DNA of 41,903 nucleotides from a virus. A model generated the notes under the pieces. It was not told the origin of the DNA, did not search any database, and worked only from the letters and a program-made list of their open reading frames with translations. Below are positions 9,310-35,853 of this stretch, one piece after another. A program made the position numbers and the translations under genes. Position 1 is the stretch's first letter; each line of letters opens with the position of its first letter. Location: positions 1 through 41,903 of IMG/VR virus record IMGVR_UViG_3300044776_000009. One strand, written 5' to 3'.

Positions 9310-9614
9310 CGTTGCTCCCAGAGTTCTTCGGTCGTGCGGTCGGTCTTGCACCTGACACATCGGTCGTCTGCGTCGTAGTGGTGCCAGGAGTAGATGAAGC
9401 ACCAGTCGTCCATGCAGACGTACCAGGGGTTCGGCCCCGGAGTGACGGTCGGCACCGCCCCCACCCGGCTGTTCTGGTACCTCTGCCGGTCGTAGGACCG
9501 ACGCCAGTCAAGGCACTCGGCGCACCGGCACCGGTGAGGCTTGTGGTAGGCCGTTGAGCCCCCGTGGGCGACGTGTGCCGGAAGGGTTACCGGCTCCCCC
9601 GGCTCCTGCCTCAC
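9288..9614 (-). CDS. zinc-finger-like hypothetical protein, 108 aa
   Basis: GTG at 9612-9614 overlaps the upstream stop (GTGA). Two metal-type clusters are visible: HRCRCAECLDWRRSYDRQRY (about 27-46), a motif that recurs in small actinophage proteins, and CMDDWCF...CVRCK further on. Aromatic residues are frequent (WYVCMDDWCFIYSWHHYD). Likely DNA- or protein-binding; no precise function. Confidence 0.65.
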   Translation of the reverse strand: MRQEPGEPVTLPAHVAHGGSTAYHKPHRCRCAECLDWRRSYDRQRYQNSRVGAVPTVTPGPNPWYVCMDDWCFIYSWHHYDADDRCVRCKTDRTTEELWEQRWEASKP

Positions 9615-10534
9615 TGCGGGAGCATCTTCTCTGCCCTGCCCCGCAGCTCGTTGGCCAGACCCTCGATGACGTGGTTGGCGTGTTCCTCGGCTTCATGCAG
9701 ATCAGCGCCCCGCCTGATGCCCGCTGCCATCAGCAGGTCGGCCGCATCGGTGTACGCCTTGTATCTGCCGTATCGGCCGATCGCCTGGGCGGTGTTCGCC
9801 ACCTTCATCTTTGCGACGATGACGCGGACGTCTTCGGACACAGCCGTCCGTGAGAGCTTCAGTTCCTGAGCGATGTCGGCGTGCTCACGCCCTGCGGACA
9901 CTTCGGCCAGGATCTTCCCCTGGCGGGGCGTGAGGGGGCCGGTGGTGACCCGCTGGTCAAGGGACGGCATGTCGTTCTCCTTCTGGTAGTGGTCGATGCA
10001 CCCGAAGCACTTCCGGGTGAGCTTGTTGGCCACGAGCTTGTTGTTCGCTTCAGCGTCGGTCAGGCGGACCGCGTTTACGGGCCGCTCGCAGAGCGCCTTG
10101 TTGCCCCGGACGATGTGCATCTCCCAGCCCTTGGTGCCCACAGCCCACCGGCGCTCAGAGGCCCGAGTGGCACAACCGGGGTGATGCGGCTTGTCGCCCC
10201 CGTAGTACTTACGCTCCATGACCGGGCAGGTGCACTCGGGAGTCTGCTGCGCGTCGAACGCCGTGTTCATCTCCATAGCCTCTGCGTGGTCCCGGTCACG
10301 ACCGGCGGCGACCGTCTCGGCGTAGACGATGGCTTCGCTGTACTTGCTCTCGCAGTTCGCGCACATCTTGACCCACGGGGTACGGCGGGCCATGTCCTGC
10401 GCCGCATCGCGGTCACGGTGCGGCGTGACCGACGTACGGATGTTGCTGCGGCAGAGCGCTACACCACCCTCACCGAAGGCGTGGAAGGTGTAGCCGCTCT
10501 GGGTCCAGTTCCAGATCTTGCTGTTGGCGTCCAT
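9611..10534 (-). CDS. LuxR-type HTH regulator with zinc-ribbon-like N-terminal region
   Basis: ATG at 10532-10534, with AGAGGAG upstream, gives 307 aa. Residues about 201-255 (LTPRQGKILAEVSAGREHAD, then IAQELKLSRTAVSEDVRVIV) match the LuxR/GerE C-terminal DNA-binding HTH. The N-terminal 190 residues carry Cys pairs (MCANC, ECTCP...HHPGC, KCFGC) that suggest zinc ribbons rather than a ligand or receiver domain. A further helical region (DADLHEAEEHANHVIEG-like) ends the protein. It is the first gene of the long leftward operon and is preceded by promoter P2, so it may regulate that operon or the P1-P4 promoter family. Without a conventional sensor domain, its input is unknown. Confidence 0.75.
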   Translation of the reverse strand: MDANSKIWNWTQSGYTFHAFGEGGVALCRSNIRTSVTPHRDRDAAQDMARRTPWVKMCANCESKYSEAIVYAETVAAGRDRDHAEAMEMNTAFDAQQTPECTCPVMERKYYGGDKPHHPGCATRASERRWAVGTKGWEMHIVRGNKALCERPVNAVRLTDAEANNKLVANKLTRKCFGCIDHYQKENDMPSLDQRVTTGPLTPRQGKILAEVSAGREHADIAQELKLSRTAVSEDVRVIVAKMKVANTAQAIGRYGRYKAYTDAADLLMAAGIRRGADLHEAEEHANHVIEGLANELRGRAEKMLPQ

Positions 10535-11045: not shown

Positions 11046-11082
11046 CTTGCGCACCGCTAGACACGCACCTGAAGGGTATCGA

Positions 11083-14000
11083 ATGGACCTGACCACCGCT
11101 CTGTCCGCAGAGCACTACCAAGAGATCACTCACGACTCGGCTGTAGCTGCCGACGTCGCCGCAGCACGCGGCTACCGCACCCTCACGGGTACCGGCGCCG
11201 ACCGCGACGAACTGAACGATCTGGGCTTCAAGCCGTTCGTCTGGAGCAGGGACGACGCCTACCCCGGCCTCCTCATCCCGATGCACGGGGCGGACGGCAC
11301 CGTCCGGGGCCATCAGTTCAAGCCCGCAGTCCCCCGCAAGCGGGTCAAGACCGACCAGAGCACGACCCCCATCAAGTACGAGAGCCCCTCCAAGGCACCC
11401 CTGGTGATCGATGTCCCGGAGTACACCCGGGGTGTCCTGACGGACACCAGCGTCCCTCTGTGGCTCACCGAGGGCATGAAGAAGACCGACGCGCTTGTGA
11501 GCCAGGGTCTTGCGGCCATCGGCCTCACCGGCGTCTTCAACTGGCGTAACTCCCATGGGGTCCTCGGGGACTGGGAAGAGATCCCGATCAAGGGCCGCGT
11601 CATCGTCCTCTGCTTCGACGCGGACGCTGCGGGCAACCGCAACGTGCAACTGGCCATGAGCCGTCTGGGCGCGTGGCTGAGGACCAAGGGTGCGTCGACC
11701 GTGCATTACCTGGTCGTCCCGCCGAAGGTGGGCGAGAGCGACGTCAAGGGAGTCGACGACTACTTCGCTGCGGGCGGGGACCTGGAGACGCTGCGGTCGG
11801 CAGCCACCCAGACTGCACCGGGCGCCGGTGAGAAGGATGCCGCCTTCACGGACGCGTTCCTGGTCGAGGAACTGGCCGAAGCACTGGACGGGCAGTATTG
11901 CTGGGCGTCCGGTCTCGGGTGGCTTCGTTGGACCGGCAGGGTGTGGAAAGAGGTATCCGACGTCGAGCCGCTGGAAGCGGTCCGGGTGTGGGCGTCGGAG
12001 CAGTTCGACAGGATCCTGACGCAGCAACGCCAGGAACCCGCCCGCAACCTGGGCGGTCAGATCATGGGCTGGCGTGCCGTCCTCGGCAAATCCCGCTTGA
12101 CCGCCCTGCGTGATCTGGCGCGTGGCCTGCTCCAGAAGGACTCCGCCGAGTTCGACGGTGATCCTGACCTCTTCACGGTGGAGAACGGGACGCTGCACCT
12201 TCCGTCCGGCCGGCTCCTGCCGTTCGACCCGTCGCACTGCATCACCAAGGCAGCTGACGCGGAGTACCGGCGGGGCTTCACGCATCCGTTGTGGACCAAG
12301 GCTCTCAGGGCGATCCCCGGTGACATGCACGAGTGGTACCAGGACCGGCTTGGTCAGGCTCTGACCGGTTACCCGGTGCCGGATCACACGCTCGTCATCG
12401 GGCACGGCTCGGGGTCCAACGGCAAGTCCACGATCGTCAGCACGGTGCGCCGCACCATGGGCGACTACGGCGTGATGATCTCTGACCGGGTACTGATGGC
12501 GTCGCCGGACGCACACCCCACAGAGCTCATGGATCTGCGGGGCGCCCGGTATGCGGTCATGGAGGAGACGCCGGAGGCCAGGCACCTGAACGTGCAGCGG
12601 CTCAAGACGGTTCTCGGCACCGAGTCCATCAAGGCGCGCCGGATCCGTCAGGACCCGGTGGAGTTCCTCACCTCGCACAGTCTGTTCATCAACACGAATT
12701 ACCGGCCTGTGGTGACGGAGACGGACTGGGGCACGTGGCGTCGGCTCTCCCTGATGCCGTTCCCTTTCACCTTCAAGAAGCCCGGGAAGCCCCTGGAGAG
12801 CCCCTGGGACCGTGAGGGCGATCCGGCTCTGGCCTACGCGGCCAACGACCCGGAAGTGCGCTCTGCGGCTCTGGCGTGGATGGCCGAGGGTGCGCGCGAG
12901 TGGTACGCCCGTGGACGCATGATGCTGCCGGCTCCCGACCGGGTGGAGAAAGAGACCCGGGAGTGGCGTGCCGAGACGGACTTGATCCTGGGCTTCACGG
13001 ATGAGTGTCTGCGCTTCGACCGTGAGGCGTTCACGCAGACGCGGGACATGCTCACCGCGTTCAACAGCTGGGTGGAGGAGCGGGGTCACCGGCCGTGGAA
13101 CGACCGGACGTTCGCGACACGGTTCGGGGATCACGACACGGTGCGTGGCGCGAAAGTGAAGCAGGGCAGATTCTCGGTCAAGGGCAAGCAGCTGCGAGGG
13201 TGGTCGGGCGTGGAGATCAACAGGGATGGCGAGGATCCGTTCACTGGCGAGCGAGACGTGCCGCAATCTCCGGCCGGCGGGTACGACGCGGGTGAAGGCA
13301 ACATGACGTGGATCGAGGACGGTGTGCCCGGTCCGATGGACTACTCCGACTTTCCGGAGCAGACGCCCGAATCACTTTGCGAGCAACCGCAAAGTGATCA
13401 CTTTATTGGTGCCAATAAAGTGATCAAGGCCCCCGTCACCCTCGCATTCGATCTGGAGACCGCAGACGCCAAGCACATGTTCACCGGCCAGTACGAAGGC
13501 CCGTTCGTCCGGCTGGCTGGAGCTGCCGACACGACGGATGAAGAAATCGGTGCGGCCAACCCGATGTTCGTAGCGGCCTTGAACGCGGCCGACGTGATTT
13601 ACGGCGCCAACATCCTGGGCTTCGATCTCCTCGCTCTGGCCCACCACCATGGCGCTGACTATGACGCGCTCGCTGCCAAGGCTGTGGATCTCACTGCCCG
13701 GGAGCGGTTGGTGGATCCGCCGATGTCGAAGAAGAAGACGTCGTACAAGCTGGATGCGATCGCCGAGCGGTACGGCGTGGCCGGCAAGACGGACGACATC
13801 AAGGCTCTGGCCAACCGGTACGGGGGCTTCGACAAGATTCCTGTGGATTCCCGGGAGTACCAGGACTACTTGAGGGGCGACCTTGCCGCCACGAAGGCTG
13901 TGAAGGCCGCCCAGGATGCGCGCGTAGCCGAGCTGGGGTTGGAGGAGTACGCGGCCCGTGAGATGCGCGTGGTCGCCATCCAGAACCGCGTGACGCTCAA

Positions 14001-15321
14001 CGGCTGGAAGGTGGACACGGAGCTTCTAGCCGAGCGCGTCGCGCACGAAGATGAGCAACGTTCGGCCGCAGTGAAGGTGTTGAACGAAGAGTTCGGCGTA
14101 CCGCTGGCCAAGCCCGACCGGTTCAAGCTGCGGAAGAAGTCCGACATGCCGGAGGCTTACCGGACATGGCCGATCGAAGATCTCCGGGGTGCTATGGCCG
14201 AAGATCCAGCCATGGCCGAGTTGGAGGGGCTGGCCGAACGCATCCCGGGAGAGGTCTCCAAGAAGCCGTGGACCACCAACGAGGGGCGTGACGCCATCGT
14301 GAAGGCGTTCGCGGACGCCGGAGCGCCCCAGGTACCGCGTAGCCCCACGGGGACGCTGAGGACGTCGTCAGACGCTCTCGGGGAGGAAGAGTGGTACGAC
14401 AAGGACCGCCGGAAGAACGTGAAGGGGATGCTTCAGGTCTACGGCCACATCCCGGAAGTCCGCCGGATCGTCGATCACCTGATGCTGGCCACCGGCGCCC
14501 GGGACAAGTACGCGGAGATCGTCAAGTGGTTGTCGCCCCAGGGGCGTGCGCACAGCAAGGTCGGGGCGGCCCAGGGTTCCGGCCGGTGGGCGTACACGGA
14601 GTTCTCTGTGACCAACATGGGCATGCGGGGTGCGGCGGGCGAGGAGCGCGCCGTGATGGTCGCCGATGAGGGCCAGGTGCTGCTCACCTGTGATGCCTCT
14701 CAGGTGGACATGCGCGCCGTGGCCGCTCTCTCCCAGGATCCTGCCTACATGGCGCTGTTCGAGCCGGGCCGTGACGCGCACATGGAGATGGCGGAGGTCT
14801 ACTTCGGCGAGCGGACTCCCGAGAAGCGGCAGCGTACGAAGCGGATCAACCACAAGTTCAACTACGGGGGCGGGGTGGAGTCCACGTCCGTCATGGAGAA
14901 GATTCCCCGGGAGATCGTGCAGCAGGCGTTCGACGCGCGCGAGGCTGCATACCCGGTGCTGCGGGAGTGGCTGGCCGGCATCCGCAACCTTGCGGCCTCA
15001 GGCGCACTGCTCGACAACGGGTTCGGTCGTCTCATGCGCCCGGATCCGGAGCGCGCCGCTACTCAGGGGCCTGCTCTGATGGGTCAGGGGGCCGCCAGGG
15101 ACATCGTCTGTGAGTCGCTGCTGCGGCTGGTCGACCGGGACAAGCGTGTACTCGGGCATCTGCGGGGGTTCGTCCATGACGAAGCCATCCTCAGTGTTCC
15201 CGAGGATGAAGCGGGGTACTGGGCGGAGGTACTGGCCGACGCGTTCACGTGGACGTGGCGTGACGTTCCGATCCTCTGTGAGGTGGGCAAGCCCGCTTTC
15301 CGCTGGTCGGAGTGCAAGTAG
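11083..15321 (+). CDS. primase-helicase / family A DNA polymerase fusion, 1412 aa
   Basis: ATG at 11083, with GAAGGG upstream. The N-terminal part has a TOPRIM-like domain (LTEGMKKTDAL near 129; LCFDADAAGN near 180), then a D5/P4-type primase-helicase with Walker A GSGSNGKST (near 445) and the sensor-like FINTNYRPV. After a polar linker (about 740-783) comes a 3'-5' exonuclease-like domain (DLETAD near 790; YGANILGFD; YLRGD). A family A polymerase follows: motif A LLTCDASQVD (near 1200), motif B RINHKFNYGG (near 1255) and motif C VHDEA (near 1365). All expected catalytic residues are visible. One polypeptide could thus prime, unwind, proofread and polymerise. These are usually separate phage genes. 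The linker is encoded by two perfect palindromes (13371-13425). Confidence 0.93.
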   Translation: MDLTTALSAEHYQEITHDSAVAADVAAARGYRTLTGTGADRDELNDLGFKPFVWSRDDAYPGLLIPMHGADGTVRGHQFKPAVPRKRVKTDQSTTPIKYESPSKAPLVIDVPEYTRGVLTDTSVPLWLTEGMKKTDALVSQGLAAIGLTGVFNWRNSHGVLGDWEEIPIKGRVIVLCFDADAAGNRNVQLAMSRLGAWLRTKGASTVHYLVVPPKVGESDVKGVDDYFAAGGDLETLRSAATQTAPGAGEKDAAFTDAFLVEELAEALDGQYCWASGLGWLRWTGRVWKEVSDVEPLEAVRVWASEQFDRILTQQRQEPARNLGGQIMGWRAVLGKSRLTALRDLARGLLQKDSAEFDGDPDLFTVENGTLHLPSGRLLPFDPSHCITKAADAEYRRGFTHPLWTKALRAIPGDMHEWYQDRLGQALTGYPVPDHTLVIGHGSGSNGKSTIVSTVRRTMGDYGVMISDRVLMASPDAHPTELMDLRGARYAVMEETPEARHLNVQRLKTVLGTESIKARRIRQDPVEFLTSHSLFINTNYRPVVTETDWGTWRRLSLMPFPFTFKKPGKPLESPWDREGDPALAYAANDPEVRSAALAWMAEGAREWYARGRMMLPAPDRVEKETREWRAETDLILGFTDECLRFDREAFTQTRDMLTAFNSWVEERGHRPWNDRTFATRFGDHDTVRGAKVKQGRFSVKGKQLRGWSGVEINRDGEDPFTGERDVPQSPAGGYDAGEGNMTWIEDGVPGPMDYSDFPEQTPESLCEQPQSDHFIGANKVIKAPVTLAFDLETADAKHMFTGQYEGPFVRLAGAADTTDEEIGAANPMFVAALNAADVIYGANILGFDLLALAHHHGADYDALAAKAVDLTARERLVDPPMSKKKTSYKLDAIAERYGVAGKTDDIKALANRYGGFDKIPVDSREYQDYLRGDLAATKAVKAAQDARVAELGLEEYAAREMRVVAIQNRVTLNGWKVDTELLAERVAHEDEQRSAAVKVLNEEFGVPLAKPDRFKLRKKSDMPEAYRTWPIEDLRGAMAEDPAMAELEGLAERIPGEVSKKPWTTNEGRDAIVKAFADAGAPQVPRSPTGTLRTSSDALGEEEWYDKDRRKNVKGMLQVYGHIPEVRRIVDHLMLATGARDKYAEIVKWLSPQGRAHSKVGAAQGSGRWAYTEFSVTNMGMRGAAGEERAVMVADEGQVLLTCDASQVDMRAVAALSQDPAYMALFEPGRDAHMEMAEVYFGERTPEKRQRTKRINHKFNYGGGVESTSVMEKIPREIVQQAFDAREAAYPVLREWLAGIRNLAASGALLDNGFGRLMRPDPERAATQGPALMGQGAARDIVCESLLRLVDRDKRVLGHLRGFVHDEAILSVPEDEAGYWAEVLADAFTWTWRDVPILCEVGKPAFRWSECK
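13371..13425 (+). repeat. two tandem perfect palindromes at the fusion joint
   Basis: First: ATCACTTTGCG (13371-13381), 6-nt loop AGCAAC, CGCAAAGTGAT (13388-13398). Second: GATCACTTTATTGG (13396-13409), 2-nt loop TG, CCAATAAAGTGATC (13412-13425). They overlap by three bases, making AAAGTGATCACTTT between them. They are translated in frame as the linker just before the exonuclease motif. A related palindrome is at 31972-32009. Confidence 0.9.
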
Positions 15322-31497: not shown

Positions 31498-31959
31498 TTA
31501 TCCCCTCAAGTACGCGGTGCCCGTGATCGGGGCCCCGAACGTGATGGTTGTCGTCTCATCGTCAGGATGAGCTACGTCGCCCTGACTGTCTTGCGCATCC
31601 ACAAGCACAGTCACTGTCGGCTCGATGCCGAAGTGATGCTCGATGGTCCACACGGTGGCAGGTGAAGCTTGCGTATGGATGAACGTGCCTGGCCAAGCCG
31701 CGTCGGTCTCGTCAGCGTCTACGACGTACTGAAAGAGGCGGCCCGAGACATCGGTTACATACGCCCCCGGGGCCGCGTAGAAGGTGAGCATCCCACCTGA
31801 ATCAGTCAGCACCGGGTTGACCAGAGGAATCGTCCCCGCCTTGTCCACGTACGTGGGAGTGAGGGCGTTCCCGCCCAGCCGCATGACCGGGTAGGGCAGC
31901 GTGTCCACCGGGTTGCCGTCCGGGAAGGTGAGGAACTGCGTGTACTTGATGAGCGGCAT
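31498..31959 (-). CDS. fiber docking-type protein, 153 aa
   Basis: ATG at 31957-31959. The first ~80 residues (YTQFLTFPDGNPVDTLPYPV ... SGGMLTFYAAPGAYVTDVSG) share their layout with the 391-aa protein: KY, FP-x-G, TD-x-x-G-x-L-x-F, G-x-Y and R-x-F. The C-terminal half resembles the small beta domain of the 112-aa protein (VTVLVDAQDSQGD ... ITFGAPITGTAYLRG). Its leader contains the 18-bp palindrome at 31972-32009. Confidence 0.6.
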   Translation of the reverse strand: MPLIKYTQFLTFPDGNPVDTLPYPVMRLGGNALTPTYVDKAGTIPLVNPVLTDSGGMLTFYAAPGAYVTDVSGRLFQYVVDADETDAAWPGTFIHTQASPATVWTIEHHFGIEPTVTVLVDAQDSQGDVAHPDDETTTITFGAPITGTAYLRG

Positions 31960-31971
31960 AGGGACCCCCGA

Positions 31972-32009
31972 GGGTGATCACTTTCGAGGTGCCTCGAAAG
32001 TGATCACCC
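31972..32009. repeat. perfect 18-bp palindrome with 2-nt loop, intergenic
   Basis: GGGTGATCACTTTCGAGG (31972-31989), loop TG, CCTCGAAAGTGATCACCC (31992-32009). It shares GATCACTTT, three variable bases, GGTGCC and the matching complement with the second palindrome in the replication fusion gene. Here it lies between the major tail gene and the next gene, so it may also weaken transcription or stabilise the major tail mRNA. Confidence 0.9.
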
Positions 32010-32016
32010 ATCGTCG

Positions 32017-32718
32017 TTACGGCGCGATGACCAGCGTGACAGTGCCACACGCAGGAGTCGGGAGCGGGGCCGACGTCACTTCGAAGTGCATGACCTGAGT
32101 GGCGCCGATCGGACTGGTGATCTTCTCCAGCGTCGCGGGGACCGTTGCATCCCGGCGGACCAGGTACGGGCCCAGACCCCAAGCGGAGTTGAACACGGCG
32201 CGAGCGACCCAGGTGAACGTCAGGACACCGTTCTCGATGGTCCACTCGTTCCACTGGGCGTCCTTGACCCACGGGAACAGGAAGTACCCGTAGTTCGTGA
32301 ACCCGCCGGCCGTGCAGGCCTGCCCGGACACGCCCGCCCACATCTCCAGCCCGAAGTTCGCCGAGCCGGACACGGCCGCGTCGATACGGAAACCGATGTT
32401 GTTCGGGGTGCCCGCGTCGTCCAGCACGATCGGATCACCGGTGATCAGGTTGATCATGCCCGGGTCCTCGGTGCAGACATTCAGCTCAATGTCGATCCAG
32501 CGCAGCGCGACCGGCCCACGGTCGTCGATGCAGAGGTCACCATTGGCATCCTGCTGCGTGATCTCCTCGGCATCGGCGTAGTTCGGGGTGAACGTCCCCG
32601 AGATGAACGCCTTCGCCACCAGCGAGCCACCGGCGCCGGCCACCGGCGCGCCGCAGGAATCCAGCTTGGTCAGGCGCATCATCTTGCCACGCGACATCGA
32701 CACACAAGTCGTTGCCAT
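32017..32718 (-). CDS. major tail protein (putative)
   Basis: ATG at 32716-32718 shares a base with the previous TAA. The 233-aa protein is beta-rich with few charged helices. It has KMMRLTKLDSCGAPVAGAGG near the N-terminus and tail-tube-like strands (VALRWIDIELNVCTEDPGMI, NYGYFLFPWVKDAQWNEWTI). LTKLD..G near the N-terminus is a recurring feature of actinophage tube proteins. Placement upstream of the fiber-like and connector genes is less common, so the alternative is a decoration protein. Confidence 0.65.
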   Translation of the reverse strand: MATTCVSMSRGKMMRLTKLDSCGAPVAGAGGSLVAKAFISGTFTPNYADAEEITQQDANGDLCIDDRGPVALRWIDIELNVCTEDPGMINLITGDPIVLDDAGTPNNIGFRIDAAVSGSANFGLEMWAGVSGQACTAGGFTNYGYFLFPWVKDAQWNEWTIENGVLTFTWVARAVFNSAWGLGPYLVRRDATVPATLEKITSPIGATQVMHFEVTSAPLPTPACGTVTLVIAP

Positions 32719-35760: not shown

Positions 35761-35853
35761 CCTAGACGGGTTAGACAGGTAGTCCGGATCATCCCTCACG
35801 TAAGACTTCTATATCCCGGTTAACCGGAGTACCTGTCTAACCCGTCTAGAAGT
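35761..35853 (-). repeat. inverted-repeat element B (~91 bp)
   Basis: Same architecture as element A: CTAGACGGGTTAGACAGG at one end, TCTAACCCGTCTAG at the other, and a core with ATATAG and CTTACGTGAGG-type words (read leftward). Compared in the plus direction, its arms match element A nearly perfectly, but the core is reversed. Read toward the downstream capsid gene, the core has the same direction as in element A relative to the polymerase gene. Confidence 0.8.

Follow-up and report, generated by a model that had tools for sequence, protein, structure and literature searches.

The window, by which we mean the whole 41.9-kb virus record, carries the gene set of a siphophage. Portal, capsid, tail, primase-polymerase and exonuclease genes were recognized by profile, terminase and endolysin genes by inspection, and no integrase was seen in this gene set. 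Three palindromes, here called copies 1 to 3, lie in the window at the following places.

11047-15321, + strand: primase-helicase (DUF3854, D5_N) fused to a family A DNA polymerase; the gene that holds copies 1 and 2
13371-13425, no strand: tandem pair of copies 1 and 2, an in-frame linker insertion relative to phages A and B (introduced below)
13371-13398, no strand: copy 1, ATCACTTTGCG-AGCAAC-CGCAAAGTGAT, with 11-bp arms and an unpaired, non-palindromic 6-nt centre
13396-13425, no strand: copy 2, GATCACTTTATT-GGTGCC-AATAAAGTGATC, as a whole GATCACTTTATTGGTGCCAATAAAGTGATC, in the DHF reading frame (DHFIGANKVI)
31498-31959, - strand: gene MPLIKYTQF..., directly downstream of copy 3; the gene order is identical in L132 and L137
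31972-32009, no strand: copy 3, extended, with 18-bp perfect arms
31976-32005, no strand: core of copy 3, GATCACTTTCGA-GGTGCC-TCGAAAGTGATC
32017-32718, - strand: major tail protein gene (phrog_792), which ends just before copy 3

All three dyads are of the ATCACTTT-N12-AAAGTGAT type. The first-pass annotation had described them as three perfect palindromes. All were found in their places, but copy 1 is imperfect, its centre AGCAAC being unpaired. The annotation had also noted that the inner triplets change together with their partners and that two copies have a common centre. Both observations held: the triplet pairs are GCG/CGC, ATT/AAT and CGA/TCG, and GGTGCC is common to copies 2 and 3, in which only the central TG is unpaired. 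Copies 1 and 2 are spaced by 26 bp and overlap by two bases (AT) within a common GTGATCAC. As had been reported, they lie in the linker of the primase-polymerase and copy 3 is intergenic, between the tail protein gene and the 31498-31959 gene, just upstream of the start of the latter. The pattern ATCACTTTN{6,24}AAAGTGAT occurs three times in the window against 0.00 expected from window shuffles, which rules out random palindromes as the origin of these dyads. An intrinsic terminator was rejected on inspection because no U tract follows the stem. The window also has two long inverted repeats (765-850 and 35762-35849, with 23- and 26-nt arms) that are unrelated to these palindromes, one of which adjoins the head genes. 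A LuxR-type HTH (GerE) domain is present in the 307-aa protein encoded at 9611-10534 (- strand); neither an integrase nor a repressor is visible in this phage.

The three palindromes belong to an apparently undescribed, widespread family of short DNA elements. Its broad form is CAYTTT-NNN-GGNNCC-NNN-AAARTG, and the window copies have the arms CAYTTT/AAARTG, the 12-bp spacing, the covarying inner triplet and the GG..CC. When viral contigs were scanned with a variable gap, AT-rich contigs gave every gap length, and a gap of 12 was dominant (9/12) among the loci with a GC content of at least 0.58. The GC-rich gap-12 form is ATCACTTT-NNN-GGNGCC-NNN-AAAGTGAT, and tighter patterns led to more copies. 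The search of actinophage and Streptomyces DNA that the first-pass annotation had proposed revealed further copies in viral contigs, in a plasmid and in 10 of 395 Streptomycetaceae genomes; a reversed-pattern control gave 0 matches. The Streptomyces-type pattern is thus rare in hosts, and a host chromosomal repeat was rejected because only these 10 genomes and three genome contigs had it. The Streptomyces plasmid, pSM17B (L167, NZ_CP029340), carries a tandem pair of the palindrome. This 28-kb linear record consists largely of a 14.7-kb unit duplicated head to tail, so that most genes are listed two times; it may be a dimer or the result of faulty assembly.

A second arm type, CCATTTT, was found in 29 viral stretches, mostly outside dinD. 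A query of this form matched a few phages and dinD genes and nothing in E. coli genomes, the E. coli dinD dyad being too different for it. The consensus of the Streptomyces form had no match in named phages. Rfam 15 gave no match at gathering score with nine sources searched. Among open-access papers we found nothing relevant on DinD or Bro-N with palindromes, or on these sequences, so the novelty of the family is unproven. Usually there is one copy per genome, and a record has between 1 and 5 copies, each about 30 bp long. Many loci are fragments, and some carriers may have dinD elsewhere. In short contigs, coding status was judged from base composition.

The closest relatives found, phage A (L132/G411) and phage B (L137/G413), have 73-77% nucleotide identity to the window. 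Both encode the same primase-polymerase fusion, with a joint that lacks any palindrome. The alignment with phage B covers residues 2-1424 of the fusion in a single frame through the joint, and about 51 bp holding the palindrome pair are absent from phage B. In phage A the joint spans the contig ends, which we read as circular permutation. The protein sequence of the linker is not conserved. It had been suggested that the fusion arose by reading through a palindrome between two formerly separate genes, and the first-pass annotation had itself named homologous fusions with a palindrome-free joint as evidence to the contrary. Phages A and B have just such fusions, and the read-through origin was rejected. 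The likeness to Rickettsia palindromic elements, which insert in frame in genes, stood in general terms as regards linker insertions but not as regards the origin of the fusion. Because the fusions of phages A and B are free of palindromes, the tandem pair in the window is, judged from these alignments, a later, clean, in-frame gain in a variable linker. All three phages (the window, L132 and L137) have copy 3 at the orthologous place ahead of a late gene. Its arms are identical at 16/16 positions across the three, and its interiors have diverged and covary. Copy 3 is thus conserved and presumably functional.

The commonest place of the family is inside dinD-type (Bro-N) genes, at the codons DHFxGAxKVI, from Streptomyces to E. 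coli, Streptococcus and Bacteroidota. dinD is an old SOS gene of unclear role. Many of the copies from Streptomyces are in frame within a DinD-type gene with Bro-N and ANT domains (NF008573, E 1e-37, which is under the curated cut-off). At the same 30 bp, dinD of E. coli K-12 has a different sequence that forms a nearly perfect dyad, GACCATTTCGAGGAGATCCTCGATATGGTC, with 13/15 pairs. The dyad was found at the same site in 80 further viral loci with very diverse sequences, for example GACCATTTTCCCGGCGCCGGGAAAATGGTC in L193 and AATTTCCTGGGATCCCAGGAAAT in L227, where TTC for F pairs with GAA for E. Two Bacteroidota plasmids and Streptococcus phage Javan290 also carry it in their annotated dinD genes. 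Javan290 and Javan291 (L332/L336) are prophages of Streptococcus marmotae HTS5; dinD of the former lies between integrase and repressor genes, and in the latter a small gene of the late region holds a matching dyad (DHFREVTKM). A profile of 84 dinD genes found no DinD in the window. The structure model of DinD had low confidence (pLDDT 66.5, pTM 0.44) and matched no fold in the PDB, where no sequence match was found either.

We tested pairing at the dinD site in 68 non-redundant genes with less than 80% mutual identity, a set chosen by similarity. On average 11.2 of 15 pairs were complementary, against 4.0 (sd 0.55) at other offsets. Shuffling of synonymous codons gave 7.4/15 (combined P = 7e-70). 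Codon choice was examined in the 50 dinD genes with a GC content of at least 0.60. At the site, F was encoded by TTT in 34/42 cases compared with 8/158 elsewhere in the same genes, and K by AAA in 26/40 compared with 14/179. Among the mismatches at the site, 39 were G-U and 52 were A-C. As the deviations are not biased to G-U, the selection looks to be on DNA. Going by codon usage, this DNA-level selection overrides the usual codon choice inside dinD genes.

Outside dinD, 35 Streptomyces-type copies were compared, after a mild filter had removed one chance match (L014). The inner three pairs were complementary in 33, 32 and 27 of the 35 copies, against about 14, 14 and 11 in shuffled sets, and the central pair was at chance level. 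In a structure-pair count, 96.3% of cells were paired against 84.8%, and covariation was 0.296 against 0.095; none of 500 shuffles reached such values, and slid registers gave about 45% paired or less. The covarying inner triplets seen first in the window are therefore a trait of the family.

At least ten copies lie 15-30 nt before a start codon and others lie elsewhere, many of them outside dinD and without a clear leader position. A leader position with a Shine-Dalgarno-like sequence was seen in the window, L132, L137, L142, L143, L144, L151, L306 and L316, and one phage has five sites in three leader regions. Mismatches in leaders comprised 0 G-U and 3 A-C. An upstream copy is present in only a few dinD loci: in L303 a perfect copy precedes the dinD start by 23 nt and the internal site has decayed, L258 has a leader copy 239 bp before the internal one, and in L129 a copy lies 335 bp upstream. 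Tandem pairs at 34-35 bp occur in pSM17B, L011, L145, L151 and L155. Where copies clearly lie in coding sequence, most follow the DHF frame and fall in linkers, many of these interdomain or disordered, as in a primase-helicase (L081) and an SpdB-like protein (L158/L166), both named by inspection. L158 and L166 are near-identical SpdB-like paralogues in one Streptomycetaceae genome (G193, each at about position 1500). They differ at 6/12 inner bases within identical immediate flanks, which points to a burst of local change. Another short motif, GCAGGTCAG, was noticed close to many copies of the Streptomyces type, no more than about 25 nt away (L011, L108, L145, L158, L164 and L165). Most non-dinD carriers, including the window, have no dinD in the DNA examined, and the same is true of most Streptomycetaceae genomes with a non-dinD copy.

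The family thus exists, is selected at the DNA level inside dinD and has a conserved copy at an orthologous intergenic site. We propose, with a probability of about one half, that the palindrome is a cis-acting site in double-stranded DNA, most likely an operator for a two-fold symmetric protein. This reading is suggested by constant half-sites at a fixed spacing, leader positions, tandem copies and the fixed place in dinD. The two half-sites are ATCACTTT in Streptomyces mobile elements and CCATTTT, CAACTTT or CAATTT elsewhere. The best candidate for the binding protein is DinD itself or a related Bro-N protein, because the tie to dinD is tight in lineages that share little else and includes the chromosomal gene of E. 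coli. The dyad inside dinD would then be an internal auto-operator. Copies just before ribosome-binding sites might put other phage genes under the same regulator; in the window these would be the late gene after the tail protein gene and perhaps the polymerase. As most non-dinD carriers have no dinD, another trans-acting factor may be needed.

A protein that reads bases does not explain the inner triplet, because the triplet is free to vary while its pairing persists, and because copies within a genome are not alike. Base-by-base reading of the triplet is improbable. Template switching in short inverted repeats is an established source of stem repair and of multi-base compensatory changes (PMC8794818). 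The inner pairing is probably kept by such hairpin template-switching, in which one arm is copied onto the other; template switching does not require the inner bases to be under selection. A hairpin or cruciform form may be needed. Tolerant places, such as leaders and interdomain linkers, would gain copies, which may have led to the pair in the primase-polymerase linker.

The palindrome could also be a selfish or mobile palindromic element, like those of Rickettsia, whose short hairpins are copied to tolerant places of phage genomes and linkers and are functionless for the phage. The linker insertion in the window is clean and in frame, many copies share one reading frame within linkers that are interdomain or disordered, and at one locus a prophage element holds dinD with an internal palindrome (L154:433-1480) where another holds the palindrome alone (L150:2249). 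However, there is mostly a single copy per genome, neither a mobilizing enzyme nor a multi-copy burst was seen, the orthologous late copy keeps perfect arms across about 25% divergence, and one fixed dinD site is conserved at the codon level across phyla. We consider this explanation unlikely.

An RNA hairpin that controls translation or mRNA stability from leaders or coding regions seems quite improbable. Stable stems do lie just upstream of Shine-Dalgarno-like sequences and show compensatory changes. However, sense-strand G-U does not exceed A-C in either dinD or leaders, both TTT and AAA are maintained even though a wobble pair with AAG would be tolerated, and Rfam had no match. A site for site-specific recombination, in which half exchange would create hybrid interiors, is more doubtful still. 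The geometry would suit it (28 bp, two half-sites, a possibly asymmetric central dinucleotide), as would the central pair at chance level, the hybrid-looking interiors such as those of L158/L166, and the serine recombinase genes that adjoin copies in pSM17B and, by inspection, in L316. However, we found no recombinase common to the carriers and no inversions or integrations at the sites; half exchange would destroy the inner pairing rather than keep it, and the place in chromosomal dinD is fixed. That the palindrome is a by-product of the conserved protein motif DHFxxxxKMV with complementary codons is scarcely credible: the motif is conserved in DinD, lifts the null to 7.4 pairs and shares its frame with coding copies elsewhere, but the observed 11.2 pairs contradict it, TTT and AAA run against codon bias, and non-coding copies have the same arms.

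The family may be set beside known systems. Rickettsia palindromic elements are about 100-150 bp long and occur as many dispersed, near-identical copies per genome. They resemble the present family in being palindromic DNA in frame inside unrelated, otherwise normal genes, but the present elements are much shorter (about 30 bp), with roughly one copy per phage genome instead of many dispersed ones, a copy that is conserved at an orthologous site and a constant position in dinD. The stoperators of mycobacteriophage L5 and the conserved inverted repeats of phiC31 are short scattered sites near gene starts in temperate actinophages. The family is similar in its short sites, some of which lie near gene starts, and in proposed protein binding; however, its sequences are different, its inner bases covary, its sites also lie inside dinD across phyla, and its cognate repressor is only putative. 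Operators of the gal type have one external site before the gene and one internal site in the coding sequence; L258 likewise has a leader and an internal copy, although a protein and looping there are putative. Phage antirepressor genes of the dinD/Bro-N type (PF02498) have the same dyad inside at a fixed codon position with lineage-specific arms, whereas the window phage has no recognizable DinD and carries its copies in a linker and next to a tail gene. PARCEL palindromic coding repeats are also dyad-symmetric coding DNA dispersed with mobile elements, but their sequence is unrelated and they are 75-nt tandem protein repeats of the DUF285/TIGR02167 type (PMC2996958). Instead of tandem 25-residue amphipathic repeats, the present family consists of single or paired 30-bp dyads.

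In one gene family, from E. coli to Streptomyces and Bacteroidota, a dyad is conserved as a palindrome and not as a sequence. Coding DNA can thus hold a selected dyad over very long times. The family offers a natural case in which selection for pairing can be separated from template-switch repair, and dinD gains a testable regulatory hypothesis. The palindrome is also a marker for possible cross-talk between mobile elements. Tentatively, DinD-type proteins might be ancient, phylum-crossing regulators that keep their own DNA target as a palindrome in the Bro-N codons, and the spread of this target through phages and plasmids might wire unrelated mobile elements into a shared circuit of control or interference.
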